A program made the translations under genes and the position numbers. The notes under the pieces were generated by a model. The model did not search any database, was not told the DNA's origin, and saw only the letters and a list, made by a program, of their open reading frames with translations. From Chitiniphilus purpureus (GTDB taxonomy: Bacteria > Pseudomonadota > Gammaproteobacteria > Burkholderiales > Chitinibacteraceae), in assembly GCF_025642115.1 (NCBI RefSeq), contig NZ_CP106753.1:698501-762500 (forward strand): 64,000 nt of DNA, in the 5' to 3' direction. Below, piece after piece: positions 41,629-57,305 of the stretch; within the stretch, counting starts at the first letter, position 1; each line of letters starts with the position of its first letter.

Positions 41629-42717
<1,089 letters not shown>

Positions 42718-42783
42718 GGGGAAGGCTCCGTCCGGAATGGGAAAACCCGGACGGTCAGGCCGTCCGGTCAGTGGCCTGACGGG

Positions 42784-42999: not shown

Positions 43000-43020
43000 G
43001 CTGGCGTCTCCTGGTGGGGG

Positions 43021-43617
43021 TCAGATGCTGATGCGTGCCGCGGCAACCTGCCGCGGCAGTTCTTCGGGATGCAGTTGCACGCTGCCTGGGTCGGGCAGGT
43101 GGGCGATCAGGCGGCCGACAGCGTGGTGCAGCCGGGCGTCAATGTCCTCGCCCACCTGGTAGCTGCCGTCGTCCTGCAGTGTGAAATCGCGGTCGGTGGC
43201 GTAGACGCCGCCGACGATGTGGCGGGCCTTCAAGGCGGACAGCACCGGTTGCAGCGCGTAGTCCACCGCCAGCAGGTGGCCCGGGCTGCCGCCGGTGGCC
43301 AGCGCCAGTGCCGCTTTCTGTTCCAGCGCGCGCTCGGGCAACAGGTCGAGCACCGCCTTGAGCGCGCCGCTGTAGGCGGCCTTGTAGACCGGGGTGGCGA
43401 CGATGAGGCCGTCGGCGGCGGCCAGGGCTTCGATGAAGCGGCGGATGGCGGGGCTGTCCCAACGGGCGTGGAGGAGATCGTCGCTGGGGAAGTCGGTCAG
43501 CGAGAAGGCCTGGGTGCGGGCGCCGTGGCTGGCAAGCAGCGCGCCGGCGCGCTGCAGCAGCGTGGTGGAGCGTGAGCGCTGGCTGGGGCTGCCGGCGAGC
43601 AGGACAACGGTGGACAT
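43021..43617 (-). CDS. ssuE: NADPH-dependent FMN reductase SsuE
   Basis: A 198-residue flavodoxin-fold reductase: LLAGSPSQRSRSTTLLQ (FMN phosphate loop), VATPVYKAAYSGALKAVLDLLP and GGSPGHLLAVDYALQPVL are SsuE hallmarks, including the YKAAYSG pi-helix with inserted Tyr. It supplies reduced FMN to a two-component monooxygenase (normally SsuD, MsuD or SfnG), none of which is in the window. First gene of the operon. Confidence 0.92.
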   Translation of the reverse strand: MSTVVLLAGSPSQRSRSTTLLQRAGALLASHGARTQAFSLTDFPSDDLLHARWDSPAIRRFIEALAAADGLIVATPVYKAAYSGALKAVLDLLPERALEQKAALALATGGSPGHLLAVDYALQPVLSALKARHIVGGVYATDRDFTLQDDGSYQVGEDIDARLHHAVGRLIAHLPDPGSVQLHPEELPRQVAAARISI

Positions 43618-43710
43618 GGCGAACGGGGCCCTCACTTCGGTTATTGCGGTGCACGTACAAAGTGCGTTAGGAAATATAAAACCGGATCAATATTACTTTT
43701 AATAATTTAT

Positions 43711-43724
43711 GATTTGTTAGATAT
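43711..43724. promoter_or_regulatory. Shared motif GATTTGTTAGATAT upstream of ssuE
   Basis: Matches the porin upstream motif (26446-26459) at 13 of 14 positions. It stands in the AT-rich block 43665-43730. A related GTTAGGAAATATA occurs at 43666-43678, 50 bp nearer the gene. Likely binding sites of a CysB/SsuR-like LysR regulator; that protein is not in the window. Confidence 0.5.
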
Positions 43725-44032
43725 AACGCGGCTCGATGTAGCGCCGGGCAGCACCCGCCAACGGCTGGCCAGGATTGCGCACGGGGTGGCGGTCCGAATC
43801 GGCAGTGGCAGCCGGTCTGGTCGGGCATGCAAGCGGCGTGCCCGGTCCCGCTGCAACCCGGGGCGAAGGTTGCGGACAGGATCCGGTGCGGCAGGCCTGG
43901 CGCGGCGCACACTACCTGGCGCCGCGGTCCCGGCAAAAGGCGCGTCCTGCCCCGACCACGCTGCATCGGCCTTGGCGTGGCCGCTGGCCGCATCGGTAGT
44001 GCCGCAGGTAGCGCGCGCAGCGGGGGCGGTTG
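43725..44032. other. 308-bp gap
   Basis: GC-rich spacer between the ssuE promoter and the end of the metallo-beta-lactamase gene. Open frames exist on both strands by composition only; no start signals or motifs. Nothing annotated. Confidence 0.4.
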
Positions 44033-44887
44033 CTAGTGCTGCGCGGCTTCCTCGGCCAGCCGCTCGGCAAGGCGGGCACGGCCCTGCTCGGCGTAACGGC
44101 GGCAGGCGTGCGGATCGATGAAGGCGGCGTTGCCCCGTTCCGGCTGGCGCGCCTGGCGTGCCCACAACCCGCCAGCTTCGGGGTGGGCGGCGATCAGGAT
44201 GTCGCAGGGCAGCGCGGCGATGCGCGCGATCGAGCGCTCGACATCGGCCTTGGCCTCGGGATAGGCGCGGTCGCCACTGTAGCGGAAGCGCTTGCCGCCG
44301 TAGGCGGAAAGGCTGTCGGCGTAGACCAGGCTGGCGGTGCGTCCATGCTCGGTGGCCTGCCAGGTCCAGCTGACGCCGCCGGGCGTATGGCCCGGGGTGA
44401 AATGCGCGGTGACCGCGAGCGGCCCCAGCCGGATCACCTCGCCATCCGCCACCGCACGGGTGTTGCGCACCGCGGCGAAGTCGGCCAGCCCGCCGTACTG
44501 TGGATCGTCCGGCAATGGGCGGCCGTGCCGCAGCACTGCCACACCCCATGCGCTGCTCAACACCGTGGCGCCGCTCAGCCGCTGCAACCATGCAATGCCG
44601 CCGGCGTGGTCGAAATGCGGATGCGAGTTGAGGATGTAGCGGATGTCCTCGGGCCTGAAACCCAGCTGCCGGATGCGCCGCGCGATCTGCTGCGGTGAGC
44701 GGGGGCTGCCGCCGTCGATCAGGATATGCCCGGCCGGCGAGGTGATCAGTACCGCGCTCAAGCCGCGGGGACCGACGTAATAGGTATTCCCGTACAGCGC
44801 GAATGGGGCCTGTGGCGCGTCCCAGGCAGCCTGATCGGCCCAGGCAGCGCTGCCGAGCAGGGTGGCGAGGGTAAGCAAGGCTTTCAT
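44033..44887 (-). CDS. Subclass B3-type metallo-beta-lactamase-fold hydrolase
   Basis: A 284-residue exported protein (signal MKALLTLATLLGSAAWA). All zinc ligands of subclass B3 are in place: His89-x-His91-x-Asp93-His94 (SHPHFDHAGG), His167 (TPGHTPGG) and His235 (AAHPEAGG). It also has the B3 phrase GHILIDGGSPRSPQQI. It may hydrolyse beta-lactams, or be an environmental lactonase of the same subclass; activity must be tested. Divergent from a methyltransferase operon. Confidence 0.88.
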   Translation of the reverse strand: MKALLTLATLLGSAAWADQAAWDAPQAPFALYGNTYYVGPRGLSAVLITSPAGHILIDGGSPRSPQQIARRIRQLGFRPEDIRYILNSHPHFDHAGGIAWLQRLSGATVLSSAWGVAVLRHGRPLPDDPQYGGLADFAAVRNTRAVADGEVIRLGPLAVTAHFTPGHTPGGVSWTWQATEHGRTASLVYADSLSAYGGKRFRYSGDRAYPEAKADVERSIARIAALPCDILIAAHPEAGGLWARQARQPERGNAAFIDPHACRRYAEQGRARLAERLAEEAAQH

Positions 44888-45108
44888 CGTGTTCTCCCGG
44901 TGGTGGCATGGGGCCCGCCGGTGGTGGCAGGCATCGGTGCGGCCCAGTGTAGGCGCGGCGGCGGTGCGCTCGCAGGCATGCCGCCGTCACCGCTGTCACG
45001 CCGTGGCCATGTACGAAACGGTGCAATGTGGGGGCGGCGCTGCTGGCTGCCCAGCAGCCGGTCGGCCCCGGGTGCGCGCAATGCCGCGTCCTGGGCCGAC
45101 CGCGGCCG

Positions 45109-45124
45109 TGGCATGCCTTGTGCT
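45109..45124 (+). promoter_or_regulatory. Possible sigma-54 promoter of the methyltransferase-flavoprotein operon
   Basis: TGGCATG-CCTT-GTGCT: correct GG/GC spacing with two mismatches. Predicted start near 45136, ahead of GGGAGG and ATG 45165. Weaker than the two other sites; composition makes chance matches possible. Confidence 0.35.
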
Positions 45125-45164
45125 GGCACCACAGCATCTCCATGACCCGTCTGCGGGAGGTGCG

Positions 45165-45977
45165 ATGTCCGGTCCCAGTCTGATGCTCGATACCCCGGAG
45201 CTGGCCCGCCATTACGAGGCGGTCAGCGTCGGGCGGCAGTTCCAGGCGGGTTTGCAGCTGGTGGCGGCGCTGCGCATCCGTCCCGGCGAGCGGGTGCTCG
45301 ATGTCGGTTGCGGTACCGGGTTGCTGGCCGAGCATGTGGCCGGGCTCGTCGGCCCCGCCGGCCGGGTGGTGGGCATCGACCCGCTGTCGCTGCGCATCGA
45401 GCTGGCCCGGCAGCACCGCCGCGAGCCGGGCAACCTCACCTTCGCCGTCGGCAATGCCTATGCGCTCGATGTCTTCGAGCCGGAGGCGTTCGACGTGGTG
45501 TATCTGAACGCGGTGTTGCATTGGCTTGCCGACAAGCCGCAGGCGCTGGCGCAGATCCGTCAGGTGCTGCGGCCGGGTGGGCGCATCGGCATCGCCACCG
45601 GCTCGCGCGAGCATCCCGGTGCGTTGCAGCGTGTGCGTCACGCGGTGTTGTCGCAGCCGCCGTACGACGCCTACCCCCAGGCGCGCGACGGTGCCTCGGC
45701 ACGGGTGGACGCGGCCGAACTGGGGGCGCTGTTGACCGCCGCCGGCTTTGATGCGGTGCGCATCGACGTGCGCCCTGACACCCAGGTGCATGCCGATGCC
45801 GATGCGGCGATCGCCTTTTCGCAAGCCAGTTCGTTCGGCAATTTCCTCGGCCATTTGCCCGAAGCGCTGCGCGCCGGCGCACGCGAAGCCATCCGCGTCG
45901 CGCTTGACGCGCAGCGCCAGCAAGCGGGTGTGCGTCAGCAAGGCGCCCGCCTGTACGCCATCGCCTTGCGGGCCTGA
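45165..45977 (+). CDS. Class I SAM-dependent methyltransferase
   Basis: A 270-residue enzyme: motif I VLDVGCGTGLLAEH, acidic residue GIDPLSLRIELA, post-motif LNAVLHWLADKPQAL and RPGGRIGIATG. It belongs to the UbiE/TAM-like group. The C-terminal region (AELGALLTAAGFD onward) would bind the acceptor, which is unknown. GGGAGG ribosome site. It is followed 24 bp later by a flavoprotein gene, so it may modify the same organosulfur substrate or product. Confidence 0.88.
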   Translation: MSGPSLMLDTPELARHYEAVSVGRQFQAGLQLVAALRIRPGERVLDVGCGTGLLAEHVAGLVGPAGRVVGIDPLSLRIELARQHRREPGNLTFAVGNAYALDVFEPEAFDVVYLNAVLHWLADKPQALAQIRQVLRPGGRIGIATGSREHPGALQRVRHAVLSQPPYDAYPQARDGASARVDAAELGALLTAAGFDAVRIDVRPDTQVHADADAAIAFSQASSFGNFLGHLPEALRAGAREAIRVALDAQRQQAGVRQQGARLYAIALRA

Positions 45978-46001
45978 GCCCGCTGCCACAAGGAGCCCTG
46001 C

Positions 46002-47615
46002 ATGACCGTGAATCCAACCCGCGTACAGGATGTGCGCACCCTGCAGACCGATGTGCTGGTGATCGGCGGCGGCCCCGCCGGCTGCTGGGCAGCCTGGCGG
46101 GCCACACAGGCGGGCGCCCGGGTGGTGCTGGCCGACAAGGGCTATGTCGGTACCTCCGGGGCGACGGCGCCGTCGGGCACCGGGGTGTGGTACGTGCCGC
46201 CCGAGGCCGAGGCGCGCGCGGCGGCGCTCGCCAGCCGCGAGGCACTCGGCGGCCACCTCGCCGATCGCGAGTGGGGCGAGCGCGTGCTCGACCAGACCTA
46301 CGCCAACCTCGAACAGGTGGCGCAGTGGGGCTATCCGTTCCCGGTGGATGATGCCGGCCGGCAACGCCGCACCTCGCTGCAAGGGCCCGAGTACATGAGG
46401 CTGATGCGTCGGGTGGTCAAGCAGGCCGGGGTCCGGGTGCTGGACCAGAGCCCGGCATTGCAGCTGCTGCTGGATGACGAGGGCGCGGTGGTCGGTGCCG
46501 AAGGGGTGGACCGGCAGCGCGACGAAACCTGGCGCGTGCATGCGGGTGCGGTGGTGCTGGCCACCGGCGGCTGCGCGTTTCTTTCCAATGCGCTGGGCTG
46601 CAATGTGCTGACCGGCGACGGCTACCTGATGGCGGCCGAGAGCGGGGCCGAGTTCTCCGGCATGGAGTTCTCCAATGCCTACGGGCTGTCGCCGGCGTTC
46701 TCGTCGGTGACCAAGTCGGCGTTCTACCGTTGGGCCACCTTCCGCGATGAGGATGGCCGCGTGATCGAGGGTGCCGGTGCCAAGCACGGCCGCAGCGTGA
46801 TCGCCCGCCATCTGGAAGCGGGAACGCAGGTCTACGCGCTGCTCGACTTGGCCAGCGAGGACGAGCGCCGCCACGCCCGCGGTGCCCAGCCCAATTTCTT
46901 CCTGCCATTCGACCGGGTCGGCATCGACCCCTTCACCCAGCTGTTCCCGATCACGTTGCGGCTGGAAGGCACGGTACGCGGCACCGGCGGGCTACGGCTG
47001 GTGGACCACGGCTGCGCCACTACGGTGCGTGGGCTGTATGCCGCAGGCGATGCGGCCACGCGCGAGCTGATCTGCGGCGGTTTCACCGGTGGCGGCAGCC
47101 ACAATGCCGCCTGGGCCACCTCGTCCGGCTGCTGGGCCGGGGAGGCCGCGGCGCGTTTCGCACTCCACCGGGGCGCGCGCGCCCACGGCCGCCCCGCCGC
47201 CGTCGCCACGCAATGGGGCGGACGTGTGCTGGATGCGCGCGCACTGGTGCGGGCGGTGCAGGCCGAGGTGCACCCCTATTCGAAGAACCTGTTCCGCAGC
47301 GCCGAGGGCCTGGCCGCCTCGCTGGCGCGGCTCGACGGCTACTGGCAGGCCGTGCGGCACAGTGCGCCGGCGCAAGCCGCCGCCGAGCGGATACGCGAAC
47401 GCGAGGCCGCAGCCATGCTGGCCACCGCGCGCTGGATGTACCGCAGTGCATTGGCACGCACCGAGACGCGCGGGATGCACAAGCGGCTCGACCATGCCGG
47501 CGAGGACCCGGCGCAACGGCACTACCTGTACAGCGGCGGGCTCGACCAGGTGTGGACGCGCAGCCACCGTGCGCCCTGGCATGGCACCCCGGGGCGCGAG
47601 GTGCTGGCGGCATGA
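46002..47615 (+). CDS. FAD-dependent oxidoreductase, AprA/fumarate-reductase-like (copy 1)
   Basis: A 537-residue flavoprotein of the succinate dehydrogenase/fumarate reductase/AprA superfamily. N-terminal dinucleotide motif LVIGGGPAGCWAAWRATQAG, capping domain in the middle, C-terminal FAD contacts TTVRGLYAAGDAATRELICGG and SGCWAGEAAARFAL, then a helical tail. It ends overlapping a ferredoxin gene by 4 bp (ATGA). The pairing with a two-cluster ferredoxin resembles AprAB of dissimilatory sulfur metabolism, but the sequence is divergent and the substrate unknown. Confidence 0.85.
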   Translation: MTVNPTRVQDVRTLQTDVLVIGGGPAGCWAAWRATQAGARVVLADKGYVGTSGATAPSGTGVWYVPPEAEARAAALASREALGGHLADREWGERVLDQTYANLEQVAQWGYPFPVDDAGRQRRTSLQGPEYMRLMRRVVKQAGVRVLDQSPALQLLLDDEGAVVGAEGVDRQRDETWRVHAGAVVLATGGCAFLSNALGCNVLTGDGYLMAAESGAEFSGMEFSNAYGLSPAFSSVTKSAFYRWATFRDEDGRVIEGAGAKHGRSVIARHLEAGTQVYALLDLASEDERRHARGAQPNFFLPFDRVGIDPFTQLFPITLRLEGTVRGTGGLRLVDHGCATTVRGLYAAGDAATRELICGGFTGGGSHNAAWATSSGCWAGEAAARFALHRGARAHGRPAAVATQWGGRVLDARALVRAVQAEVHPYSKNLFRSAEGLAASLARLDGYWQAVRHSAPAQAAAERIREREAAAMLATARWMYRSALARTETRGMHKRLDHAGEDPAQRHYLYSGGLDQVWTRSHRAPWHGTPGREVLAA

Positions 47616-47929
47616 TCGAACTCATCAGCGCCGAGCGCTGCATCAACTGCGACCTGTGCGTGCAGATCTGCCCCACCAACGTGTTCGATGTGGTGTCGGG
47701 CGACAACCCGGTGATCGCCCGCCAGCACGACTGCCAGACCTGCTTCATGTGCGAAGCCTATTGCCCGGTCGACGCGCTCTACGTGGCACCCTTCGCCGAG
47801 CGCACGGTGCCGGTGGTGCCGGCACAGCTGGAGGAGACGGCCCTGCTGGGCAGCTATCGCCGTGCCCTCGGCTGGAGCCCGGGCGGCCAGGCCGAGCCGG
47901 ACCAGAGCTTCCGGCTGCTGCGCGGCTAG
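47612..47929 (+). CDS. 2x[4Fe-4S] ferredoxin partner (copy 1)
   Basis: A 105-residue protein with two cluster motifs: Cys10, 13, 16, 20 (CINCDLCVQICP) and Cys41, 44, 47, 51 (CQTCFMCEAYCP), followed by a 50-residue tail. Likely takes electrons from the flavoprotein encoded immediately upstream. The stop TAG lies in a CTAG palindrome that also ends the opposing DUF971 gene. Confidence 0.92.
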   Translation: MIELISAERCINCDLCVQICPTNVFDVVSGDNPVIARQHDCQTCFMCEAYCPVDALYVAPFAERTVPVVPAQLEETALLGSYRRALGWSPGGQAEPDQSFRLLRG

Positions 47930-48243
47930 CCGCCGCTCCGGAGCGGTCCGTTTGCTGCCGTGGCCTCCTGCGTGGCGGCCAGCTGTTGCAGATAGGGCCA
48001 CGGATAGATGCCGCGCTCGTGGCCATCGGCAAAGCGCAGCTGCACCGCGTAGTGCCCCAGCGGCGCGAGTCCGGCCAGCGCGGTTGCGACGGGGACCGGC
48101 ACGGCCTGGCCGCGCAGCGCGGCAGCATGGCAATCGGCGCAGCGGCAGGCCGCACGCAGTGCCTGGGCGGAGAGCGTGGCGCTGCCATCCGGCCAGACCA
48201 GCGTCAGCGCCTGTGGAGTCAGGCGAATTTCGAGCGGCGTCAT
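47926..48243 (-). CDS. DUF971 protein
   Basis: A 105-residue DUF971 (GBBH-like N-terminal) domain: LTLVWPDGSATLSAQALRAACRCADC and HYAVQLRFADGHERGIYPWPYLQQL. The C-x-C-x-x-C cluster (RCADCH) may bind metal, and similar domains occur in gamma-butyrobetaine hydroxylases and beside Fe-S assembly genes. Last gene of the minus operon; its ATG overlaps the HEAT-protein stop. Perhaps it helps load clusters into the ferredoxin (inference). Confidence 0.85.
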   Translation of the reverse strand: MTPLEIRLTPQALTLVWPDGSATLSAQALRAACRCADCHAAALRGQAVPVPVATALAGLAPLGHYAVQLRFADGHERGIYPWPYLQQLAATQEATAANGPLRSGG

Positions 48244-49220
48244 GCCGTGGCCAGTCGGCTGATGGCCAGGCGCGCCGCCTTGCGTACCTCCGGATCGGGG
48301 TCGGCGGCGGCCACGTCAAGCGCGGCCTGGGCCGCGGGGTCGCCGATCTCGCCCAGTGCGATGGCAGCTTCCTTGCGCAGGTTGCCGACCGGGTGGGCGA
48401 GGCTGGCGATCAGCGCCGGCAGCGCGGCGGCGTCGCCGATCAGGCCGAGCGCGCGGGCCGCCTTGATCCGCACCTGCCAGATATCGTGTTCCAGCGTGCC
48501 GATCAGCGTCGGCGCCGCGCCGGCCAGCCGCAGCTTGCCCAGCGTGGCGGCGGCTTCCTCGCGCACCGGCCACTGCGGGTCGGCCAGTGCCGCCAGCAGC
48601 GCCGGCAGCACGATATCGCTGCCGGCATAGCCCAGTGCGCCGGTGGCGGCACGCCGGACTTCGGCATCCGGGTCGTGCCGGGCCAGCCTGGCCAGCTCGG
48701 GCAGCGCGTCGGCCAGCTTGAGCCAGCCAAGCACGCCCACCGCTTCGCGCCGCACGGCGGCATCGGCGTGCGGCAGCGCCGCCAGTGCCGCATCGCCCGC
48801 CTGCGGCACCCGCAGTTCGCGCAGCGCCCGCAATGCGGCGGCGCGGGCGAAGGCATCCGGGTGCCGCGCCCAGGGCAGCAGCGCGGGGCCGGCCTCGCGC
48901 GCCTTCAGCTCGGACAGGGTCTGCGCCGCCGCCTCGCGCACCGCCGCCTCAGGGTCGAGCAGGCGCGCGGCCAGTTGTCCGGCCAGCGTGACGGCGGCGT
49001 CCGGTTCGTCCCAGCCGGCCACAAGGCGTGCGGCTTCGGCACGCACGGTGCCATCCGGGTCGTCCAGCGCGGCCAGCAGTGCCGGCAGGTGGTCCGGGTC
49101 GCCGTGGTCGGCCAGTTCGATCAGCGCGATGCGGCGGGTGGCGGCGTCGGTGTCGCTCAGCCGGGGCGTCAGCGCCAGGTAGTCGGGGTCGCCGCTCAGT
49201 GCGGCCAGGGTGTCGGTCAT
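48240..49220 (-). CDS. HEAT-repeat protein
   Basis: A 326-residue all-helical solenoid of about nine to ten HEAT/PBS-lyase repeats of roughly 31 residues (for example PDAEVRRAATGALGYAGSD, PQWPVREEAAATLGKLRLAG, PVGNLRKEAAIALGEIGDP). No catalytic motif. Such solenoids act as scaffolds or in cofactor attachment. It is translationally coupled to DUF971 downstream and lies 10 bp after the ATPase gene, an unusual companion of an ABC importer. Confidence 0.9.
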   Translation of the reverse strand: MTDTLAALSGDPDYLALTPRLSDTDAATRRIALIELADHGDPDHLPALLAALDDPDGTVRAEAARLVAGWDEPDAAVTLAGQLAARLLDPEAAVREAAAQTLSELKAREAGPALLPWARHPDAFARAAALRALRELRVPQAGDAALAALPHADAAVRREAVGVLGWLKLADALPELARLARHDPDAEVRRAATGALGYAGSDIVLPALLAALADPQWPVREEAAATLGKLRLAGAAPTLIGTLEHDIWQVRIKAARALGLIGDAAALPALIASLAHPVGNLRKEAAIALGEIGDPAAQAALDVAAADPDPEVRKAARLAISRLATA

Positions 49221-49230
49221 GGGCGTTCCG

Positions 49231-50088
49231 TCAGATGGCGAATTGCAGGGCATGCACGTCGGGCGCGCCCAGCGGCGTCAGCCGCGGCAGCGGCTGGGCC
49301 GGTGCGTCGTGGTGCAGCAGCGCGAGGCAATGGCGCTTGAGCGCAATGAAGTCGGCGCTGGTCGAGAGCGCGGCATCGCGCGGGCGGGCGAATGGCAGCC
49401 GCAGATCCTCGACGATGCGGCCCGGGCGTGGGCCCATCACCAGGATGCGATCGGCCAGGAACAACGCTTCGTCGATATCGTGGGTGACGAACACCACGGT
49501 GGTGCCAAAGCGTGCCCATACGTCGAGCAGCAGTTGCTGCATCTTCAGCCGGGTAAGCGCATCGAGCGCGCCGAACGGTTCGTCCATCAGCAGTACGCGC
49601 GGCTGGCCGATCAGCACGCGGGCGATTTCCACCCGCTGCTGCATGCCGCCGGAGAGCTGCGACGGATAGCGCTGCTCGAAACCGGCGAGCCCCACCAGCG
49701 CCAGCAGTTCCTGCGCGGCGGCATGGCGTTCGGCGCGTTTGAGTCCGCGCATCTTGAGGCCAAAGGCCACGTTGTCGATCACCCGCCGCCACGGGAACAG
49801 CGTGTGGTGCTGGAATACCAGGCCGCGCTCGGGCGAGGGCCCGGTGACGCTGGCCCCATCGACGTGCAGCGCGCCAGAGGCGGGCGCCAGGTGGCCGGCC
49901 AGCGCGCCGAGCAGCGTCGATTTGCCGCAACCCGATGGCCCGAGCAGGCAGACGAACTCGCCCGGTGTGATGTCGAGCGTGACGTCCTCGACCGCGGTGA
50001 AGGCATCCTTGCCGTGGCCGACGCGGATGGCCACCTGGTCAAGCGCGATGCGGCCAGCGGTGGTGGCAAGCGGAAGCGGCGCGTTCAT
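49231..50088 (-). CDS. ABC importer ATPase (SsuB/TauB-like), second system
   Basis: A 285-residue ATPase: Walker A GPSGCGKST, Q-loop FQHHTLFPWRRV, signature LSGGMQQRV, Walker [12 protein letters not shown], switch THDIDEALFLAD. About 25 extra residues follow the usual end (PLPRLTPLGAPDVHALQFAI). The ATG at 50088 overlaps the permease stop by 4 bp. Confidence 0.93.
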   Translation of the reverse strand: MNAPLPLATTAGRIALDQVAIRVGHGKDAFTAVEDVTLDITPGEFVCLLGPSGCGKSTLLGALAGHLAPASGALHVDGASVTGPSPERGLVFQHHTLFPWRRVIDNVAFGLKMRGLKRAERHAAAQELLALVGLAGFEQRYPSQLSGGMQQRVEIARVLIGQPRVLLMDEPFGALDALTRLKMQQLLLDVWARFGTTVVFVTHDIDEALFLADRILVMGPRPGRIVEDLRLPFARPRDAALSTSADFIALKRHCLALLHHDAPAQPLPRLTPLGAPDVHALQFAI

Positions 50089-50870
50089 CGCGTCGCGCCC
50101 TGCCAGGGCATGGCCAGCCGGCCGAGCGCGCGGATCAGCGCGCTGCTGCCCATGCCCAACACACCGATCAGCAGCATGCCGACCACGATGTTGGCGTAGT
50201 TCTGCAAGGTGTAGCTCTCCCAGGTGTAGTAGCCGATACCGAACTGCCCCGAGATCATCTCGGCGGTGACGAGGCAGAACCAGCAGGTGCCCATGCCGAT
50301 GGCAAGGCCGGTGACGATGGCGGGTGCGGCGCCGGGCACGACCACTTCGGCGAACACGCGCCAGCGCCGTGCGCCCAGGCTGCGCGCCGAGGCGATGAGG
50401 CGCGCATCGACACCTTCCACGCCGTGGATGGTGGCGAGCAGGATGGGAAACAGCGCGCCGACGAAGGTGATGAACATCATCGACGCCTCGGATGACGGAA
50501 ACAGCAGTACCGACAGCGGAATCCACGCTACCGCCGGGATCGGCCGCAGCACCTCCAGCGGCGGCAGCAGCGTGCCGCGCGCCCAGCCGAAGCGGCCGAT
50601 GGCAAGGCCGAGCGCGATGCCGGCAATCGCCGCGGCGGCGAAGCCCGCGAACACCCGGTAGAGGCTGTGCCCCAGGTGGAACAGCAGCTTGGGCGATTGC
50701 ACCAGCGCCTGCCCGGCCTCCCACACTTCGCGCGGCGACGGTGCGTTGGCGAAGGTGACGAGGCCCAGGTGCGGCTTGTAGGTGGCCAACAGGTGCCACA
50801 GCAGCACGCTGGCGAGCAGCGATGCGGCGGGCAGCACCCCGGCAGCCGGGTTGAGATGAAGTGCGCGCAT
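50085..50870 (-). CDS. ABC importer permease (SsuC/TauC-like), second system
   Basis: A 261-residue permease, about six helices; EAA-type loop ARLIASARSLGARRWRVFAEVVVPGA. It also has GTCWFCLVTAEMISGQFGIGYYTW, typical of nitrate/taurine-type permeases. Unlike the first region, a single permease gene matches the single ATPase, so this is a complete homodimeric importer. Confidence 0.92.
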   Translation of the reverse strand: MRALHLNPAAGVLPAASLLASVLLWHLLATYKPHLGLVTFANAPSPREVWEAGQALVQSPKLLFHLGHSLYRVFAGFAAAAIAGIALGLAIGRFGWARGTLLPPLEVLRPIPAVAWIPLSVLLFPSSEASMMFITFVGALFPILLATIHGVEGVDARLIASARSLGARRWRVFAEVVVPGAAPAIVTGLAIGMGTCWFCLVTAEMISGQFGIGYYTWESYTLQNYANIVVGMLLIGVLGMGSSALIRALGRLAMPWQGATR

Positions 50871-50880
50871 CGCCCCGGCC

Positions 50881-52293
50881 TCAGTGGCTGGCCAGCTTGG
50901 CGGCGGGTTGGATGCTGGCGTAGTCCACTACCTTGGCGTGGTTGGCCTTGGCCCAGGTCGCGGCGGCATCCTTGAGCAGGAAGGCGGCGAGCTGGCCCTT
51001 GCCGTCCTGGGCGAACCAGGCCTGGCGCGCCAAGAGCTTGATGCCGCTGCCGTAGTCCTGCGCGTAGATCACGCGGATGCGCTTGCCGCCGGCCTCGATG
51101 CGGCGGGCGTCGGCCACGGCCGCTTCCAGCGTGGCGTAGTGGCGCACCTTGGGCTCGCCCTCGACCCACACCTGACCCAGCCGGCGGAAATCGGTGATCG
51201 GCTTGCCGGTGAGCACGTCCTTGGCGTTGAGCGGCAGCTTGCTGTAGTCCTTGAGCTGCGCTTCGTAGTCGAGCCCGGCCTGCTTGAAGGCGGCGCGGAT
51301 GTAGCGATCATCGACAAAGCTCGCCACGTCGAGATCGGCATCGGTGCGCTTGAGGTAACGCAGCGTCTCGATCGAGGTCTTCAGCGCCTGACGGTACTCG
51401 GGTTTCCAGCTGAAATCACGCGTCTGCAGGCCGAGTGGGCCGTGGAACAGGTAGGCGACCTCGGCCTCGATGCCAGTGGTCTTCTCGATCAGGTCGCTGT
51501 ATTTCTCGGGCTCGGCGGCGAACAGCCGGTCGGCCTCGATCGCGGCGCGCAGGAAGGCGGTCACGACTTCCGGATATTTCCTGGCGAATTCGGCGTTGAC
51601 CAGCGAGCCGTGGAAGGTCGGGGTCTTCGCCTGCGAGCCGTCGAAGATCTTGCGAGCAAAGCCGCGGTACGGGAACAGCTCGGCGAACGGCACAAAATCG
51701 GCATGCGCGTCGATCTTGTTCGCCTGCAGCGCGGGCCCGGCCACCTCGGGCGCCTGGGTGATGATGGTGACGTCCTTCTCCGGATCGATACCATTGGCCT
51801 TCAGCGCGCGCAGCAGCATGCCGTGCGAAGTGGAGGCGAACGGCACCGAGATGGCCTTGCCGCGCAGCTCGGTGATGGACTGGATCGGTGACGCCTTGGG
51901 CACGACGATGCCGTTGCCGCTGCCCTGCGTGCTGCCCGACAGCACGGTGATGAAGAGGCTCTTCTTGCCGGCCTTGTCGAAGGCGGCACCATTCAGCGAG
52001 CCGGGGAAATCGGCCATCGAGCCGATGTCGAGCTTGTCGGCGACCATCTCGTTGGTGAGCGGCGCGCCGGAGGTGAAGTTCTTCCACTGGATGTCGTACT
52101 GCGCATCCTTGTACTTGCCGTCGCGCGGCAGGTATTTCTCCAGGAGCTTCAGCTCGCGGATCAGCACGCCGCCGGTAGCGCAATTGATGGTGGTGTCCTG
52201 CGTGCCGATGGCGATACGGATCGTTTCAGCGTGCGCGAGGCCAGCGGTGAAGAGGGCAAGCGCGAGCGCGCCGAGTTGGTGGGTGAGTTTCAT
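50881..52293 (-). CDS. Large substrate-binding protein, second system
   Basis: A 470-residue periplasmic binding protein: signal MKLTHQLGALALALFTAGLAHA, then IRIAIGTQDTTINCATGG, EMVADKLDIGSMADFPG and STSHGMLLRALKANG. It is about 110 residues longer than the four binding proteins of the first region. The added C-terminal part (from about residue 360, KPITDFRRLGQVWVEGE) forms a separate module also found in some sulfonate/nitrate-type relatives. Ligand unknown. Confidence 0.88.
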   Translation of the reverse strand: MKLTHQLGALALALFTAGLAHAETIRIAIGTQDTTINCATGGVLIRELKLLEKYLPRDGKYKDAQYDIQWKNFTSGAPLTNEMVADKLDIGSMADFPGSLNGAAFDKAGKKSLFITVLSGSTQGSGNGIVVPKASPIQSITELRGKAISVPFASTSHGMLLRALKANGIDPEKDVTIITQAPEVAGPALQANKIDAHADFVPFAELFPYRGFARKIFDGSQAKTPTFHGSLVNAEFARKYPEVVTAFLRAAIEADRLFAAEPEKYSDLIEKTTGIEAEVAYLFHGPLGLQTRDFSWKPEYRQALKTSIETLRYLKRTDADLDVASFVDDRYIRAAFKQAGLDYEAQLKDYSKLPLNAKDVLTGKPITDFRRLGQVWVEGEPKVRHYATLEAAVADARRIEAGGKRIRVIYAQDYGSGIKLLARQAWFAQDGKGQLAAFLLKDAAATWAKANHAKVVDYASIQPAAKLASH

Positions 52294-52340
52294 TCAGGTC
52301 TCCAGTGGTTTTTGTATGGGTGAAGCAGCGGCAGCTAAGA

Positions 52341-52449
52341 GCGGTTAACAAAGCCCAGCGAAGCGGTCCTGGCGCGAAGCGCGAAGCGTAGACAGTACAA
52401 GTCGTACGGCAAGCGAGCGCGACACAGCCAGGAGGGCTTTGTTAGCCGC
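52341..52449. repeat. 109-bp imperfect palindrome between ferredoxin and binding-protein genes
   Basis: Outer arms GCGGTTAACAAAGCCC (52341-52356) and GGGCTTTGTTAGCCGC (52434-52449) pair at 15 of 16 positions; TCCTGGC (52367-52373) pairs with GCCAGGA (52427-52433) inside. The whole element would fold as a long hairpin. It fills the gap within an operon, so it may be a MITE-like insertion or an mRNA-processing or attenuating structure. Confidence 0.75.
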
Positions 52450-52450
52450 G

Positions 52451-52699
52451 CTAACGCAGCAAATAGGGGATGTCGACTTGCACCGCCCCGGTCGGGCAAT
52501 CCTTCTCGCACGGCATGCAGTACCAGCATTCGTCGAAGGCCATGTAGGCCTTGCCGCGGGTGAGGTCGATGGCCAGCACATCGAGCGGGCAGACGTCGAC
52601 GCATACGGTGCAGCCCTTGTCGGCAATGCACTTTTCATCGTCGATGCGCACCGGCACGCTGCTGCGCTGCTGGGCGAGGGAAAAGGTGGGAAAGCTCAT
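52451..52699 (-). CDS. 2x[4Fe-4S] ferredoxin, AprB-like (copy 2)
   Basis: An 82-residue protein. Cluster I ligands are Cys24, 30, 33, 37 with a five-residue first gap (CIADKGCTVCVDVCP), cluster II Cys58, 61, 64, 68 (CWYCMPCEKDCP). The widened first gap and the W-Y/E-C pattern recall AprB of APS reductase. Its ATG overlaps the flavoprotein stop by 4 bp. Confidence 0.9.
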   Translation of the reverse strand: MSFPTFSLAQQRSSVPVRIDDEKCIADKGCTVCVDVCPLDVLAIDLTRGKAYMAFDECWYCMPCEKDCPTGAVQVDIPYLLR

Positions 52700-54426
52700 G
52701 CCGGTACGGCCTCCTTGTTGATTCGCAGTTGTTGGTAGGCGGCGTGTTCGTCCCGGTCCATCGCGATCACGTAGGGCGCCAGCGGCCGCTTGAAGCACGC
52801 CATCTCGCCAGCGGCGTTCTTGTGGAGCTGCACGTGGACGCGCCATTCGGCGTCGTTGCGCTCCGGGTAGTCGACGCGGGCGTGGTAGAGCCCCCAGCGG
52901 CTTTCGGTGCGGTAGAGCGAGGCGCGCGCGGCCATCTCGGCGCAATCGCGGATCGCGTGCACTTCCATCGCCCGCATCAGCTCGTGCGGATTGCGCGCGT
53001 GCAGCAGCTCAAGGTCATCGCGGATCGCCTCGAAGCGCTCCAGCCCGAGCTGCATCTTGCGGGTGACCTTGGGCGGTTGCAGGTAGTCGTTCACCATGCG
53101 GCGCAGCTTGTATTCCACCTGGGCCGGCGGCAGGCCGGCTTCGCGCAGCAAGGGCGCCCACACCCGCTGGCGCTCGGCGTCGATCTGGCTTGCAGCCACA
53201 ACGGCATGGCTGTGCGCCTGCGCATGGCGCGCCGCCGACTCGCCGGCGAAGCGGCCGTAGACGAAGGCGCCCAGCATGTAGTTGTGCGGCACGCACGCCA
53301 TGTCGCCGGCGGAGTAGAGGCCAGGCACGGTGGTGGCCGCGTGCTCGTCCACCCACACGCCGGAGGCCGAATGGCCGCTGCACAGGCCGATCTCGGAGAT
53401 GTGCATCTCGACCATGCGCTCGCGGTAGTCGGTGCCGCGCCCGGCATGGAAGCGGCCCCGGCTGGGGCGCTCGTTGGTGTGCAGGATGGTTTCGATGGTG
53501 CTGATGGTTTCCTCGGCCAGATGATCGAGCTTGAGGAACACCGGGCCATTGCCGCCGGAGAGCTCGTTGTGGAACTCCTGCATCATCTGGCCGGACCAGT
53601 AGTCGCACTCGATGAAGCGCTCGCCGCGGCTGTTGGTGGTGTAGCCGCCGAACGGACCGGTGACATAGGCGCAGGCCGGGCCGTTGTAGTCCTTGATCAG
53701 CGGGTTGATCTGGAAGCATTCGATGCCTGACAACTCCGCCCCGGCGTGGTAGGCCATGCTGTAGCCATCGCCGGCATTGGTCGGGTTCTCGTAGGTGCCG
53801 AACAGGTAGCCCGAGGCCGGCAAACCCAGCCTTCCGGCCGCACCGCACGCCAGCACCACCGATTTGGCACGCACCACGTGGAAGTCGCCGGTGCGGCAGT
53901 CGAAGGCGAAGGTGCCGGCGATGCGGCCGTCCTCGCCGACGATCAGCCGGGTGGCCACCAGGCGGTTGGTGATCTCGACCCGGTGTTTCTTCAGCTGCCG
54001 GTACAGCACCTTCTTGATGTCATGGCCTTCGGGCATGGGCAGCACGTAAGTACCCAGGTGGTGCACCTTGCGCATTGCATAGTCGCCGGTCTCATCCTTC
54101 TCGAACTTCACGCCCCAGCGGTCGAGCTCTTCGATCATGGCGTAGCTGTGCTCTGCGTAGGCGAGGATGGTCTTCTGGTTGACGATGCCGTCGTTGGCGG
54201 CGGTGATCTCGCGTACGTACTGCTCGGGCGTGGCAAAGCCCGGCACCACGGCGTTGTTGAGCCCATCCATGCCCATGGAGATGGCACCGCTGCGCTTCAC
54301 ATGCGCCTTTTCCAACAGCAGCACCTTGAGATCGGGCCCGGCCTGCTTGGCCTTGACCGCGGCCATCGGCCCGGCGGTGCCGCCGCCGATGACAAGGACA
54401 TCAACCTCGCGTTCGAGGGTGTTCAT
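52696..54426 (-). CDS. AprA-like FAD oxidoreductase (copy 2)
   Basis: A 576-residue flavoprotein. Dinucleotide motif VLVIGGGTAGPMAAVKAKQ, then EKAHVKRSGAISMGMDGLNN, which is close to the corresponding AprA segment, DYAMRKVHHLGTYVLPMPEG, the FAD contacts TTVPGLYSAGDMACVPHNYM and a C-terminal helical domain with RTESRWGLYHARVDYPERND. It is the nearest to APS reductase alpha in the window. With the ferredoxin it should make a soluble redox enzyme for a sulfur oxyanion or C-S compound; the substrate is not known. First gene of a seven-gene operon that includes an importer. Confidence 0.86.
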   Translation of the reverse strand: MNTLEREVDVLVIGGGTAGPMAAVKAKQAGPDLKVLLLEKAHVKRSGAISMGMDGLNNAVVPGFATPEQYVREITAANDGIVNQKTILAYAEHSYAMIEELDRWGVKFEKDETGDYAMRKVHHLGTYVLPMPEGHDIKKVLYRQLKKHRVEITNRLVATRLIVGEDGRIAGTFAFDCRTGDFHVVRAKSVVLACGAAGRLGLPASGYLFGTYENPTNAGDGYSMAYHAGAELSGIECFQINPLIKDYNGPACAYVTGPFGGYTTNSRGERFIECDYWSGQMMQEFHNELSGGNGPVFLKLDHLAEETISTIETILHTNERPSRGRFHAGRGTDYRERMVEMHISEIGLCSGHSASGVWVDEHAATTVPGLYSAGDMACVPHNYMLGAFVYGRFAGESAARHAQAHSHAVVAASQIDAERQRVWAPLLREAGLPPAQVEYKLRRMVNDYLQPPKVTRKMQLGLERFEAIRDDLELLHARNPHELMRAMEVHAIRDCAEMAARASLYRTESRWGLYHARVDYPERNDAEWRVHVQLHKNAAGEMACFKRPLAPYVIAMDRDEHAAYQQLRINKEAVPA

Positions 54427-54545
54427 GGTTTGCTTCCTTGAATAAAACGGGTTTCGCCCCGCCGACCGAAGCGGCGGGCTGGATGGGTGCCTGCCCGGCA
54501 CAAAAAAACATGTCCGCCCGGCCAGCCCACGAGCGCAGCGAGGCC

Positions 54546-54639
54546 CCCTCGCGGCGGCGAGGGCGAGGGGAGGCGGGGTGGAACAAGAGGGTTGCGTTGG
54601 GCGGCATGCCACTTTCCGGACGCGCCCGGCTTTGCCGGG
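54546..54639. repeat. Dispersed intergenic repeat, copy C
   Basis: CCCTCGC-GGCG-GCGAGGG at 54546-54563 and CCCGGC-TTT-GCCGGG at 54625-54639, 79 bp apart as in copy A (16374-16467). It fills most of the 252-bp gap between the GntR gene and the flavoprotein operon. Possible transcription terminator or processing site after the regulator gene. Confidence 0.7.
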
Positions 54640-54678
54640 AGCTTGCAGAAAGTGGATGCCCTGGGTCGATAAAACGTG

Positions 54679-55410
54679 TCATCGCGCAACCCGCAGCCGG
54701 AACTGGAAGCTGTCGGAGCGGCAATACAGGTATTCGAAATCGATCGGCGTGCTGTCACGGTCGTGCGTCAGCCGTTCTATCTTCAGCAGTGGCGCACCCA
54801 CCGGCAGGCCGAGCAGGGCCGCGGTATCGCCATCTGCCAGCTGCGCATCGATGGCAAGGTCGGCGTGGCCCAGCGCGATGCCGTAGTCGTTCTCCAGGAT
54901 CACGAACACATCGCGGGTGGCGAGATCCTCGCGTGCCAGGCGCTCGCCAAGATGCGGCGCCACATAGGTCACATCGAGCGACACCGGCTCGCGATTGAGC
55001 AGGCGCACCCGGCGCAGTTCGGTGACCGGGGCGCCGGTGGGCAGCCGCAGCCGTTCGGCGACCGCAGCGCCCGCCGGCAACGTGCGGATGCCGAGCAGCC
55101 GGTTGCAGATCTCGTGACCATGTTCGCGCATCGCCTCGGCAAAGCCCTGCAGTCGGGCCAGTTGCTGGAATGGCTTGGGTCTGGAGACGAAGGCGCCCTT
55201 GCCCGGCACCTTGAACAGCACACCTTCCTTTTCCAGCTCGCCCAGCGCCTGCCGCACGGTGATGCGGCTGACGCTGTATTGCGCCATCAGCGCGCTTTCG
55301 GAGGGCAGCTGTTCATGCGGTGCATAGGCACCGACATGGATGCAGGTGCGCAACTCGTCGCGGATGCGGCTGTAGAGCGGCTGGCTGGTGTGGTGCAGGG
55401 TGTCGGGCAT
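54679..55410 (-). CDS. GntR-family regulator, HutC/UTRA type
   Basis: A 243-residue repressor. The winged helix (about residues 10-75: LPSESALMAQYSVSRITVRQALGELEKEGVL) precedes a UTRA ligand domain (VTELRRVRLLNREPVSLDV, HADLAIDAQLADGDTAALLG). It stands just upstream of the AprA-like operon on the same strand and probably controls it. A perfect palindrome ATGAC-AG-GTCAT lies 17 bp upstream of its start. Confidence 0.92.
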   Translation of the reverse strand: MPDTLHHTSQPLYSRIRDELRTCIHVGAYAPHEQLPSESALMAQYSVSRITVRQALGELEKEGVLFKVPGKGAFVSRPKPFQQLARLQGFAEAMREHGHEICNRLLGIRTLPAGAAVAERLRLPTGAPVTELRRVRLLNREPVSLDVTYVAPHLGERLAREDLATRDVFVILENDYGIALGHADLAIDAQLADGDTAALLGLPVGAPLLKIERLTHDRDSTPIDFEYLYCRSDSFQFRLRVAR

Positions 55411-55426
55411 GGCGCGGCAACTCGTT

Positions 55427-55438
55427 ATGACAGGTCAT
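55427..55438. promoter_or_regulatory. Candidate GntR operator
   Basis: ATGACAGGTCAT is a perfect 5-bp dyad with two central bases, 16 bp before the ATG of the GntR gene. The form agrees with known GntR-type operators (nGTnxACn class is different for FadR; HutC sites vary). Autoregulation is inferred. Confidence 0.5.
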
Positions 55439-55746
55439 GAATTGCAAGCACCGTGCCACGGGCCGGATTGCCCGCGCTGATCAGATCAAGTCATTGAATC
55501 CATTTGGATAACGGGATGGCGGGGCGGGGTGCGGCGCTGGACGCCGTGTGTTTGGAAATCAACATTGCGCTGCGCAGGATGTTGAAATCCCAACAGCGGA
55601 GGAAGGCCGGCAAGGCGCGACGCTGCGCCGGGAATCGGTGGATGGGGCGTTGGCGCAAGGCGCGCGCGGGCTGCAGCGGTGGCGGTGATGATGCGGGGAG
55701 GGGAATGGGCTCGGCGGGAGGGCGGGGCGGCAAAGCGCCCACAATG
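55439..55746. other. 308-bp gap
   Basis: GC-rich DNA with only composition-driven open frames. No ribosome sites or motifs supporting a gene. Confidence 0.4.
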
Positions 55747-55783
55747 CAAAAGAGCCAGACCAACTGGACGTTGGTCTGGCTCT
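55747..55783 (-). terminator. Rho-independent terminator of the ispB-tRNA-Pro transcript
   Basis: AGAGCCAGACCAAC (55751-55764) pairs perfectly with GTTGGTCTGGCTCT (55770-55783) around a five-base loop. On the minus strand the stem is followed by TTTT (55750-55747). It begins 8 bp after the tRNA 3' end. Confidence 0.9.
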
Positions 55784-55790
55784 CGGATTC

Positions 55791-55867
55791 TGGTCGGGGT
55801 GAGAGGATTCGAACCTCCGGCCTCTACGTCCCGAACGTAGCGCTCTACCAGGCTAAGCTACACCCCG
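55791..55867 (-). tRNA. tRNA-Pro (anticodon CGG)
   Basis: 77 nt on the minus strand including an encoded CCA. Acceptor CGGGGTG pairs with CACCCCG. The D-arm contains AGCxxAG...GGT. The anticodon arm CTACG-TTCGGGA-CGTAG gives CGG, and the T-arm contains GGTTCGAATCC. It lies 43 bp after ispB and just before a strong terminator. Confidence 0.97.
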
Positions 55868-55910
55868 ACTTGCAAAGAGGCGCAATTATGCGTGTGGCAC
55901 TGAAAGGATG

Positions 55911-56879
55911 TCAACTGCTCCGGTTCACGGCCAGTTCGGCCAGCTGCAGCAGTGCCTCGGTGGCCGGATTGTCCGGCAGGTCGGCCAGCAGTGCCTTGGC
56001 ACTGGCGGCTTCGCGCTCTGCCACCGCCAGCGCGTAGTCCAGCGCGCCGCAGCCTTGCACCGCGTCAAGCACCGCGGCGAAATCCTCGCCCCGGGCGTGC
56101 TGCAGTGCTTCGCGCACCACCCGGGCCTGATCGGCGCTGCCGTGTTGCATGGTGTGGATCAGCGGCAGCGTCGGTTTGCCCTCGGCCAGGTCGTCACCCA
56201 GGTTCTTGCCGATTTCGTCCTGTCTGCCGCTGTAGTCGAGCACATCGTCGACGATCTGGAAGGCGGTGCCCAGGTGCATGCCGTAGCGGGCGAGCCGGTC
56301 TTCCAGGTCCGCCGGGGCTTCGCTCAGGATGGCGCCCAGGCGCGATGCGGCTTCGAACAGCTTGGCGGTCTTGTAGCGGATCACGTGCAGGTAGCCCGCC
56401 TCGTCGATCTGTACATTGCCGATGTTCATCAACTGCAGCACCTCGCCCTCGGCGATGATGTTGGTGGCGTCCGCCAGCACTTCCATCACCCGCATCGAAC
56501 CGCAGCTGACCATCAGCTGGAAGGCGCGGGTGTAGAGGAAGTCGCCGACCAGCACGCTTGCTGCATTGCCGAACAGCGCATTGGCGGTGGCACGGCCGCG
56601 GCGCAGGCCGGATTCGTCGACCACGTCGTCGTGCAGCAGGGTGGAGGTATGGATGAATTCGACCACGGCGGCCAAGCGGTGATGCAACTCGCCCCGGTAG
56701 CCCAGTGCCTGCGCCACCAGCAGCACGATCATCGGCCGCAACCGCTTGCCCCCGGAGGTGACGATGTATTCCGCGACCTGGCGTACCAGCACCACATCCG
56801 AGTAGAGGCGATCGCGGATCAGGGCGTCCACGGCCGCCATATCCTTGCCGATGACCGACTTGACGAATTCCGTCGCCAC
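55911..56879 (-). CDS. ispB: Octaprenyl diphosphate synthase
   Basis: A 322-residue trans-prenyltransferase. First aspartate-rich motif LLHDDVVDESGLRRG (DDxxD), second FQIVDDVLDYSG (DDxxD), and GGKRLRPMIVLLVAQALG. It makes the octaprenyl side chain of ubiquinone. I chose GTG at 56879 (VATEFVKSVIGKD) because GGGAG lies upstream and the IspB N-terminus begins here; no ATG fits. Divergent from rplU, the classical ispB/rplU arrangement. Confidence 0.95.
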   Translation of the reverse strand: MATEFVKSVIGKDMAAVDALIRDRLYSDVVLVRQVAEYIVTSGGKRLRPMIVLLVAQALGYRGELHHRLAAVVEFIHTSTLLHDDVVDESGLRRGRATANALFGNAASVLVGDFLYTRAFQLMVSCGSMRVMEVLADATNIIAEGEVLQLMNIGNVQIDEAGYLHVIRYKTAKLFEAASRLGAILSEAPADLEDRLARYGMHLGTAFQIVDDVLDYSGRQDEIGKNLGDDLAEGKPTLPLIHTMQHGSADQARVVREALQHARGEDFAAVLDAVQGCGALDYALAVAEREAASAKALLADLPDNPATEALLQLAELAVNRSS

Positions 56880-57236: not shown

Positions 57237-57305
57237 CGCGCGTTCCCCATCGGGCCGGTGGGGCGCGCGCATGGGGCGCGCATCCAAATTTTCTTGGAGC
57301 TCGTT

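Follow-up and report, generated by a model that had tools for sequence, protein, structure and literature searches.

A conserved operon of Chitiniphilus purpureus with an AprA-type flavoprotein, a ferredoxin and a TauA/SsuA-type importer, and its possible role in reductive sulfite release

We analysed a 64,000-nucleotide stretch of the Chitiniphilus purpureus genome (hereafter the window), which covers positions 698501-762500 of the single 4,186,520-base contig. It carries two convergent operons, each with a flavoprotein and a ferredoxin with two [4Fe-4S] motifs. The minus operon encodes flavoprotein A2 and ferredoxin B2 together with an ATP-binding cassette (ABC) importer, a HEAT-repeat protein and a DUF971 protein, while the plus operon encodes flavoprotein A1 and ferredoxin B1 behind a methyltransferase (Table 1). 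The minus operon is conserved in many bacteria, and we give an even chance to the reading that, in sulfur-starved cells, it serves to free sulfite from an imported sulfonate-like compound by reduction, with electrons fed in by ferredoxin.

Conservation of the minus operon

At least 589 relatives of A2 were confirmed in GTDB contigs. The best 80 were taken and genes were called with tblastn thresholds in the 68 loci with 1.5 kb or more of sequence ahead of A2 and 7 kb or more behind it (12 were dropped); since this sample consists of the closest relatives, its figures are biased towards conservation. A2, B2 and the HEAT gene were complete in all 68 loci; 64 had a GntR gene upstream of A2, 59 had the full set of three ABC genes and 45 had DUF971. 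The seven genes that the first-pass annotation had assigned to the minus operon occurred together in 43 of the 68 loci, and together with GntR in 42. That annotation had the named genes right but drew the boundary too short, because the GntR/UTRA gene with which the operon opens was left out. It had also considered that the operon might not be conserved outside this strain, while we found wide conservation.

Among the best 80 of the at least 589 relatives, the nearest named ones were from Chitinolyticbacter, Jeongeupia, Andreprevotia and Silvimonas, and A2 relatives extend to Cyanobacteria and Actinobacteria. A2 was detected at E ≤ 1e-60 in 21 of 398 genomes drawn from the phylum and at 67% identity or more in 13 of 61 genomes (its own and relatives). 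Plasmid records with A2 came from rhizobia, Methylobacterium, Methylocystis, Acidithiobacillus, Acinetobacter, Nostoc, Leptolyngbya and Tsukamurella. The gene order differs between loci and is DUF971-A2-B2-HEAT in Methylobacterium and Mesorhizobium.

Amidase genes, some of them paired, were seen near A2 in six loci from Cyanobacteria and Proteobacteria (10 genes; L144, L148, L154, L048, L060 and L086). These recurrent amidases may hint at an amide-bearing substrate.

A2 and B2 resemble the subunits of APS and PAPS reductases

Among solved structures, the best match of A2 was 8a8o_A, the alpha subunit of a flavin adenine dinucleotide (FAD)/[4Fe-4S] 3'-phosphoadenosine 5'-phosphosulfate (PAPS) reductase (E 5.4e-62, residues 8-547), and AprA of adenosine 5'-phosphosulfate (APS) reductase came next. 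The matches of B2 included AprB and 8a8o_C. A2 clearly belongs to NCBIfam PRK08275 (NF006131; 1077.7 bits over residues 1-573, cut-off 587), and it missed the cut-offs of the AprA model TIGR02061 (182.6 bits, cut-off 641.75) and of the succinate dehydrogenase/fumarate reductase model TIGR01812 (175.3 bits, cut-off 567.3). B2 likewise missed that of the AprB model TIGR02060 (38.3 bits, cut-off 135.65). PRK08275 and PRK13800, the latter spanning A2 plus HEAT, are named "fumarate reductase/succinate dehydrogenase flavoprotein subunit", and the fumarate reductase name is a label. In the open-licence part of PubMed Central, these two family names led to a single paper, which deals with fungal nutrient signalling. 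Thus, the first-pass concern that the flavoproteins might belong to a characterised family with an unrelated substrate did not materialise, as a family name exists and no characterised substrate was found.

In a quick tree of 80 rows, in which 8a8o was not included, 37 A2 sequences (SH-aLRT 99), 12 AprA sequences (100) and 23 A1 sequences (94) formed separate clades; the deeper joins carried long-branch warnings, and the row for the NadB of the genome itself was a wrong 122-residue fragment.

The active site was compared by aligning 38 A2 rows with 12 AprA rows. The A. fulgidus residue numbers 74, 234 and 265 come from counting along this alignment, while 398 is presumed to be the number of the conserved His, and all four are taken as active-site residues of AprA, with Arg265 and Trp234 at the APS site. 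Asn74 and His398, present in 12/12 AprA rows, are kept as Asn57 and His352 in 38/38 A2 rows. Arg265 and Trp234 are also present in 12/12 AprA rows, but they are Leu243 and Tyr212 in 38/38 A2 rows. The pocket residues of A2 are uniform across Pseudomonadota, Cyanobacteria and one actinobacterium, yet unlike those of AprA. In B2, like in AprB, the first Cys of the second motif is followed by a Trp, which was found in 99/99 relatives with at least 40% identity. B2 has 82 residues where the solved AprB chains have 150 and 166.

Judged from these alignments and models, A2-B2 is a pair of the APS/PAPS-reductase type that shares with AprAB the FAD subunit, the subunit with two [4Fe-4S] motifs, the Trp and the Asn and His. 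It is predicted not to be an APS reductase, because Arg265 and Trp234 are replaced in every A2 row. The AprA label that the first-pass annotation gave to A2 is right, but it is misleading about the substrate, and the idea that A2 performs AprAB chemistry on APS is not supported, given the two replaced residues and the missed AprA and AprB cut-offs.

The PAPS reductase of Methanothermococcus thermolithotrophicus (8a8o) is similar to A2-B2 in its alpha subunit and, according to excerpts of PMC10322725, in a small beta subunit with two [4Fe-4S] clusters and a proposed Trp relay. Unlike A2, which has Leu, it retains Arg at the AprA 265 position. The region of its PAPS-specific loop (Lys120, Arg121 and Ser122) aligns poorly with A2, and the excerpts mention no importer, HEAT or DUF971 protein.

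The importer, the HEAT protein and the DUF971 protein

The binding protein is modelled with a TauA/SsuA-type fold. TauA and SsuA top its structural matches, which cover mainly residues 21-349, and Thi5 and pyrimidine-binding chains are also among them. No NosL structure was among the matches, which, with this span, has no bearing on the C-terminal part. The first-pass annotation had noticed an extra C-terminal module, and this module is real, since residues ~350-464 lie beyond the match to known binding proteins and are predicted with confidence in the structure model. Against NosL PF05573 (cut-off 24), the excised C-terminal piece gave 15.1 bits and the whole protein gave no match, while relatives scored above the cut-off in two loci (L118, 27.8; L145, 29.2) and below it in two others (L082, 14.7; L074, 16.5). 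The importer is similar to TauABC and SsuABC in the fold and top matches of its binding protein and in having ABC genes of the same group. It differs from them in the NosL-like module and in that the binding protein missed the SsuA/TauA cut-offs (TIGR01728, 122.9 bits, cut-off 163.5; TIGR01729, 90.7 bits, cut-off 304.25).

The HEAT protein matched PRK13800, the model of a flavoprotein-HEAT fusion, in its C-terminal part (655-896) with 82 bits, and in Tsukamurella A2 and HEAT are one protein of 893 residues. This fusion ties HEAT to the flavoprotein itself. A CxCxxC motif was found in 56 of 58 DUF971 relatives, and in two cyanobacterial loci HEAT is followed by an Mrp/NBP35 protein (FeS_assembly_P and ParA, without DUF971). 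According to excerpts of PMC7980591, the iron-sulfur (Fe-S) carrier HCF101 has a DUF971 domain that is marked by CxCxxC and whose function is called elusive, and eukaryotic HEAT proteins guide Fe-S delivery in the account excerpted from PMC10728100. Because of the HEAT fusion, the CxCxxC shared with HCF101, the Mrp/NBP35 neighbours and the eukaryotic HEAT proteins, a role of HEAT and DUF971 in Fe-S delivery can fairly be inferred, which agrees with the helper function that the first-pass annotation had proposed for them. The likeness to HCF101/Mrp (FSCA-ParA-DUF971) lies in the CxCxxC motif and in the cyanobacterial Mrp proteins, while the Met18/MMS19 HEAT adaptor is compared with the HEAT protein by analogy and not by homology.

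Sulfur and electron-donor genes near A2 loci

Nine sulfur markers (TauD, SsuD, NtaA, SfnB-like, Sbp, SsuE, YeiH, CysT/W and CysE) and the electron-donor markers FdxA, ferredoxin-NADP reductase (FNR) and a GltD-FNR fusion were searched for in 91 loci, each 17 kb or longer, with 40 stretches of 20 kb from 12 carrier genomes as controls. Sulfur markers were found beside 28/91 loci and 0/40 controls, with 63/91 loci having none; this contrast is indicative only, because the markers were chosen post hoc after clustering of the same loci, several queries were taken from these loci and so find themselves, and Caballeronia or near kin account for 8 of the 11 Sbp matches. TauD was beside seven loci, SsuD beside four and NtaA beside two, and YeiH was found in five loci by clustering and in two under a stricter test. 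In a Leptolyngbya locus, TauE/SafE and a putative sulfate exporter follow the importer.

Electron-donor markers lay beside 21/91 loci and 0/40 controls. In a Methylobacterium locus, FdxA and FNR follow the importer and close the cluster, which favours electron flow into A2-B2. A fusion protein of ~1180 residues with GltD-like and FNR-like parts was also seen near A2-B2-HEAT, at 16839-20423 of locus L073 and in 10 more loci, several of them in genomes of sulfur oxidisers. This fusion is possibly the electron donor of A2-B2.

The C. purpureus genome encodes CysD-like and CysH-like proteins and a CysI-like sulfite reductase, with the CysH-like protein identified from Pfam and from reading of its sequence, and there was no aprA match at E ≤ 1e-100 in the genome. 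With the CysI-like enzyme, sulfite that is released would be usable at once. The possibility that A2-B2 replaces a missing CysH was rejected, since a CysH-like protein is present. The link to an imported organosulfur compound, which had been suggested from the sequence at first pass, is strengthened by the TauA and SsuA structural matches, the sulfur genes beside the loci, and the SsuE and sigma-54 activator genes adjoining the two operons.

Regulation

The exact sigma-54 consensus match before GntR (Table 1) is the only site with no mismatch in the window. Of 69 relatives, 20 have a site with at most one mismatch (10 exact) in the 200 bp ahead of GntR and 49 have none, while random 200-bp windows of the same loci, read on one strand, had such a site in 13 of 4000 cases (4 exact). 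The position was mostly -48 to -58 in the family of C. purpureus and -67 to -84 in a Thiobacillus-like group. The same test upstream of other genes gave 1/79 for A2, 1/67 for the binding protein and none for B2 (0/79), the permease (0/66), the ATPase (0/69) and HEAT (0/79). An earlier count with 360-bp regions and duplicate loci, superseded by the above, had given sites with at most one mismatch in 29/100 for GntR, 3/137 for A2, 2/106 for the binding protein and none for B2, HEAT, the permease and the ATPase.

Upstream of the methyltransferase, a site with one mismatch was found at -53 to -55 in 3/3 relatives that have the same methyltransferase-A1-B1 gene order. The version in C. purpureus has two mismatches and by itself is not above chance in the window, where sites with at most two mismatches were not in excess (14 observed, 16.9 expected). 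No such site was found upstream of A1 in 15 loci outside the family of C. purpureus. Scans of the window for sigma-70 promoters and terminators gave no more than shuffled sequence gives, and an Rfam search over 40000-58000 found nothing besides a tRNA at 55794-55867.

The sigma-54-dependent activator encoded near the plus operon is presumably similar to SfnR in size and setting, and the NCBIfam models that it matched were general ones for sigma-54 activators. In Pseudomonas putida, SfnR is a sigma-54 regulator required for sulfone use, according to excerpts of PMC13352529 and PMC10256816.

Proposed function and alternatives

We propose that the TauA/SsuA-type importer takes up a sulfonate-like organosulfur anion, and that A2-B2 reduces it in the cytoplasm. 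Low-potential electrons would pass from NADPH through FNR and a ferredoxin to the clusters and the Trp of B2 and from there to the FAD of A2. The most likely chemistry would be an attack of flavin N5 on the sulfur, and the sulfite freed would be taken over by CysI. HEAT and DUF971 may supply A2-B2 with its [4Fe-4S] clusters or shield them. GntR would sense a ligand, and the sigma-54 promoter would switch the minus operon on when sulfur is short. Of this scheme, the data show the genes and their conservation, the homologies, the promoter motif and the sulfur-gene neighbours, whereas the substrate, the direction in which electrons move, sulfite as the product, the Fe-S role and the response to sulfur shortage are our proposals. 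An attack of FAD-N5 on sulfur has been proposed for the archaeal PAPS reductase in excerpts of PMC10322725, and we infer the same for A2-B2 by analogy with that enzyme. Reductive release of sulfite from an imported sulfonate is described in excerpts of PMC11423573 for isethionate reductase IsrBHDK with SsuCAB, and thus such logic exists with unrelated enzymes. That system also combines an importer with oxygen-independent release of sulfite for assimilation, whereas its enzyme is nitrogenase-like, works with a radical SAM protein and is unrelated to A2-B2.

A2-B2 might instead reduce or dehydrogenate the carbon skeleton of the substrate, as fumarate reductase, urocanate reductase and aspartate oxidase do, and leave the sulfur to be freed by a separate enzyme, SsuD or TauD for example. 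A2 belongs to the same superfamily as those three flavoenzymes and lacks the Arg and Trp of the APS site, SsuD, TauD or NtaA is beside some loci (4, 7 and 2 of 91), and A1 is placed nearer FrdA/NadB (see below). However, no solved proteins are closer to A2 than the APS/PAPS reductases, whose active-site Asn and His it keeps, and by the marker test SsuD, TauD and NtaA are missing beside most loci. We consider this explanation rather doubtful.

It is unlikely that the substrate is free of sulfur, such as a pyrimidine, an aromatic or a metal-bound compound, and that the sulfur neighbourhood is incidental. The NMT1/THI5-type fold binds pyrimidines too, the NosL-like module hints at a metal, and 63 of the 91 loci have no sulfur marker, but TauA and SsuA are the top structural matches, sulfur genes were found beside loci and not in controls, and an SsuE gene adjoins.

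Sulfite disposal, in which A2-B2 would oxidatively remove the sulfite that arises from desulfonation, had been offered as an option in the first-pass annotation and is less likely still. Dissimilatory APS reductases are reversible, as stated in excerpts of PMC10322725, and some loci have genes for sulfite or sulfate exporters. Against this, adjacent FdxA and FNR indicate electron supply, and the donor genes beside 21 of 91 loci suggest that electrons flow inward. Moreover, AMP-dependent chemistry is improbable without Arg265 and Trp234, and the importer is in the operon at 59 of 68 loci.

Finally, a back-up APS/PAPS reductase for sulfate assimilation is very improbable: the archaeal enzyme is the best solved relative of A2, but C. 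purpureus has a CysH-like protein, the Arg that the archaeal enzyme keeps is Leu in all A2 rows, and sulfate needs no TauA/SsuA-type importer.

Reductive sulfite release can be put into a broader proposal, which we hold with clear reservation. A2-B2 would be a reductase that uses flavin to release sulfur from sulfonate-like compounds without oxygen, made from a re-tooled APS-reductase scaffold in which Tyr-Glu-Asn and Leu replace the APS-site residues. Aerobes of three or more phyla would use it as a substitute for SsuD and TauD, which depend on oxygen, or alongside them. It would have its own Fe-S delivery module, a HEAT adaptor with DUF971 or Mrp, that works much as the eukaryotic MMS19/NBP35-HCF101 route would with a single client. 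A1-B1 would then be a second, convergent invention on a FrdA/NadB scaffold.

The plus operon

By family models and by the quick tree with its long branches, A1 is placed nearer FrdA/NadB than AprA. Its top NCBIfam scores were TfrA (106 bits, cut-off 718), NadB (103), PRK08275 (82) and APS reductase alpha (59), all far below the cut-offs. The structural matches were nearly tied (fumarate reductase, 3.3e-12; PAPS reductase, 1.7e-11), which counts against this placement, and AlphaFold modelled A1 poorly (mean pLDDT 64.8). Thus, the first-pass view that both flavoproteins are AprA-like holds for A2 and not for A1. A duplicated pair was also considered and rejected, since A2 is AprA-like and A1 groups apart in the tree.

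The best 119 relatives of A1 were 62-84% identical, and the named ones were mostly cyanobacterial or proteobacterial. Of 300 genomes from the order, nine had A1 at E ≤ 1e-60, its own genome among them, and an A1 relative was present in one of the 68 A2 loci. The two operons are independent modules, and the possibility that they form one unit was rejected on these counts.

Of the 59 plasmid records that match A1, seven were examined, and in all seven a ferredoxin follows A1. In five of them (Azospirillum, Haematobacter, Shinella, Paracoccus and Paenibacillus), ABC importer genes are directly beside A1, and the binding protein of the Azospirillum locus is annotated as NrtA/SsuA/CpmA. The other two (Rhizobium and Agrobacterium) have only a binding protein of the PhnD/SsuA type, next to an ABC set of the peptide type, and the Rhizobium locus has two SfnB-family genes and a methionine importer nearby. 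On the Paenibacillus plasmid, the A1-B1 pair occurs twice in tandem with one importer (6989-11959 of locus L191).

The methyltransferase precedes A1-B1 in three loci (L166, L168 and L169). In L166, the set is linked to SsuE, a sigma-54 activator and an aldo-keto reductase, and there is no beta-lactamase-like gene between SsuE and the methyltransferase. Where B2 has Trp, B1 has Gln in 19/19 relatives. A1-B1 is thus a second, independent module that is linked to sulfur by its neighbourhood. In the same local sigma-54/SsuE setting, the methyltransferase-A1-B1 set would be a second flavoprotein-ferredoxin system, probably for another imported sulfur compound.

Locus layout and other features

The gene set, its coordinates, the 4-bp overlaps, the convergent layout and the methyltransferase at the head of the plus operon were all confirmed as first annotated. 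A1 and B1 overlap by 4 bp, as do B2 and A2, and the last genes of the two operons share 4 bp (47926-47929).

Table 1. Features of the two operons and their neighbours in the window
Feature	Position	Strand	Remarks
Methyltransferase, class I S-adenosylmethionine type, opens plus operon	45165-45977	+	Methyltransf_31 80.9 bits
Flavoprotein A1, 537 aa, fumarate reductase/aspartate oxidase superfamily	46002-47615	+	reaches no curated family
Ferredoxin B1, 105 aa, 2x[4Fe-4S]	47612-47929	+	eight Cys exactly; Gln at Trp position of B2
DUF971 (GBBH-like_N) protein, CRCADC motif	47926-48243	-	67 bits
HEAT-repeat protein	48240-49253 or 48240-49220 (alternative starts)	-	HEAT_2 244.8 bits
ABC ATPase, taurine/sulfonate/nitrate type	49231-50088	-	NCBIfam taurine ATP-binding subunit 272 bits, cut-off 357 missed
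ABC permease	50085-50870	-	BPD_transp_1 73 bits
Periplasmic binding protein, 470 aa, predicted TauA/SsuA-type fold, C-terminal NosL-like module	50881-52293	-	
Ferredoxin B2, 82 aa, 2x[4Fe-4S]	52451-52699	-	eight Cys exactly; AprB-type Trp
Flavoprotein A2, 576 aa, AprA/PAPS-reductase-type FAD subunit, NCBIfam PRK08275	52696-54426	-	
GntR/UTRA regulator, opens minus operon	54679-55410	-	Pfam GntR 71.8 bits, UTRA 127.8 bits
Sigma-54 (-24/-12) exact consensus match TGGCACGGTGCTTGCA	55443-55458	-	32 bp before GntR start codon
Candidate sigma-54 site, 2 mismatches, before methyltransferase	45109-45124	+	
SsuE-type NADPH-dependent FMN reductase (sulfonate monooxygenase partner), neighbour	43021-43635	-	TIGR03567 220.5 bits, cut-off 164 passed
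Sigma-54-dependent activator, 362 aa, neighbour	41629-42717	-	28 sigma-54 activator models matched; 0 of 25 listed exceed cut-off

A subclass B3 metallo-beta-lactamase-like gene (44033-44887, minus strand; 330.8 bits, cut-off 240) lies between SsuE and the methyltransferase. An element of ~130 bp (52330-52460), whose ends look inverted by eye, lies between B2 and the binding protein gene, and three diverged partial copies (72-79%) are elsewhere in the genome. Just 3' of an aldo-keto reductase gene there is a perfect 8-bp tandem repeat, CCAGCCAC, with 9.6 copies (40200-40276). An open frame at 38729-39601 on the plus strand has integrase/transposase-like features, judged from its translation.

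Implications

No description of either gene set was found in the open-licence literature of PubMed Central. The excerpts of three sulfur-starvation studies (PMC13352529, PMC10256816 and PMC12581299) do not mention the set, and no check was made for the operon in the strains studied. If our proposal is true, a gene set labelled as fumarate reductase would be a missing oxygen-independent path by which Pseudomonas, Burkholderiales, Herbaspirillum, rhizobia, Acinetobacter, methylotrophs, Cyanobacteria and Actinobacteria turn organic sulfur into cysteine. A widespread mis-annotation would be corrected, and a change of substrate on the APS-reductase scaffold would be revealed. The operon would also provide a small bacterial model of HEAT-guided Fe-S delivery, and it could account for the use by soil and plant bacteria of sulfur pools beyond those opened by the known monooxygenases.

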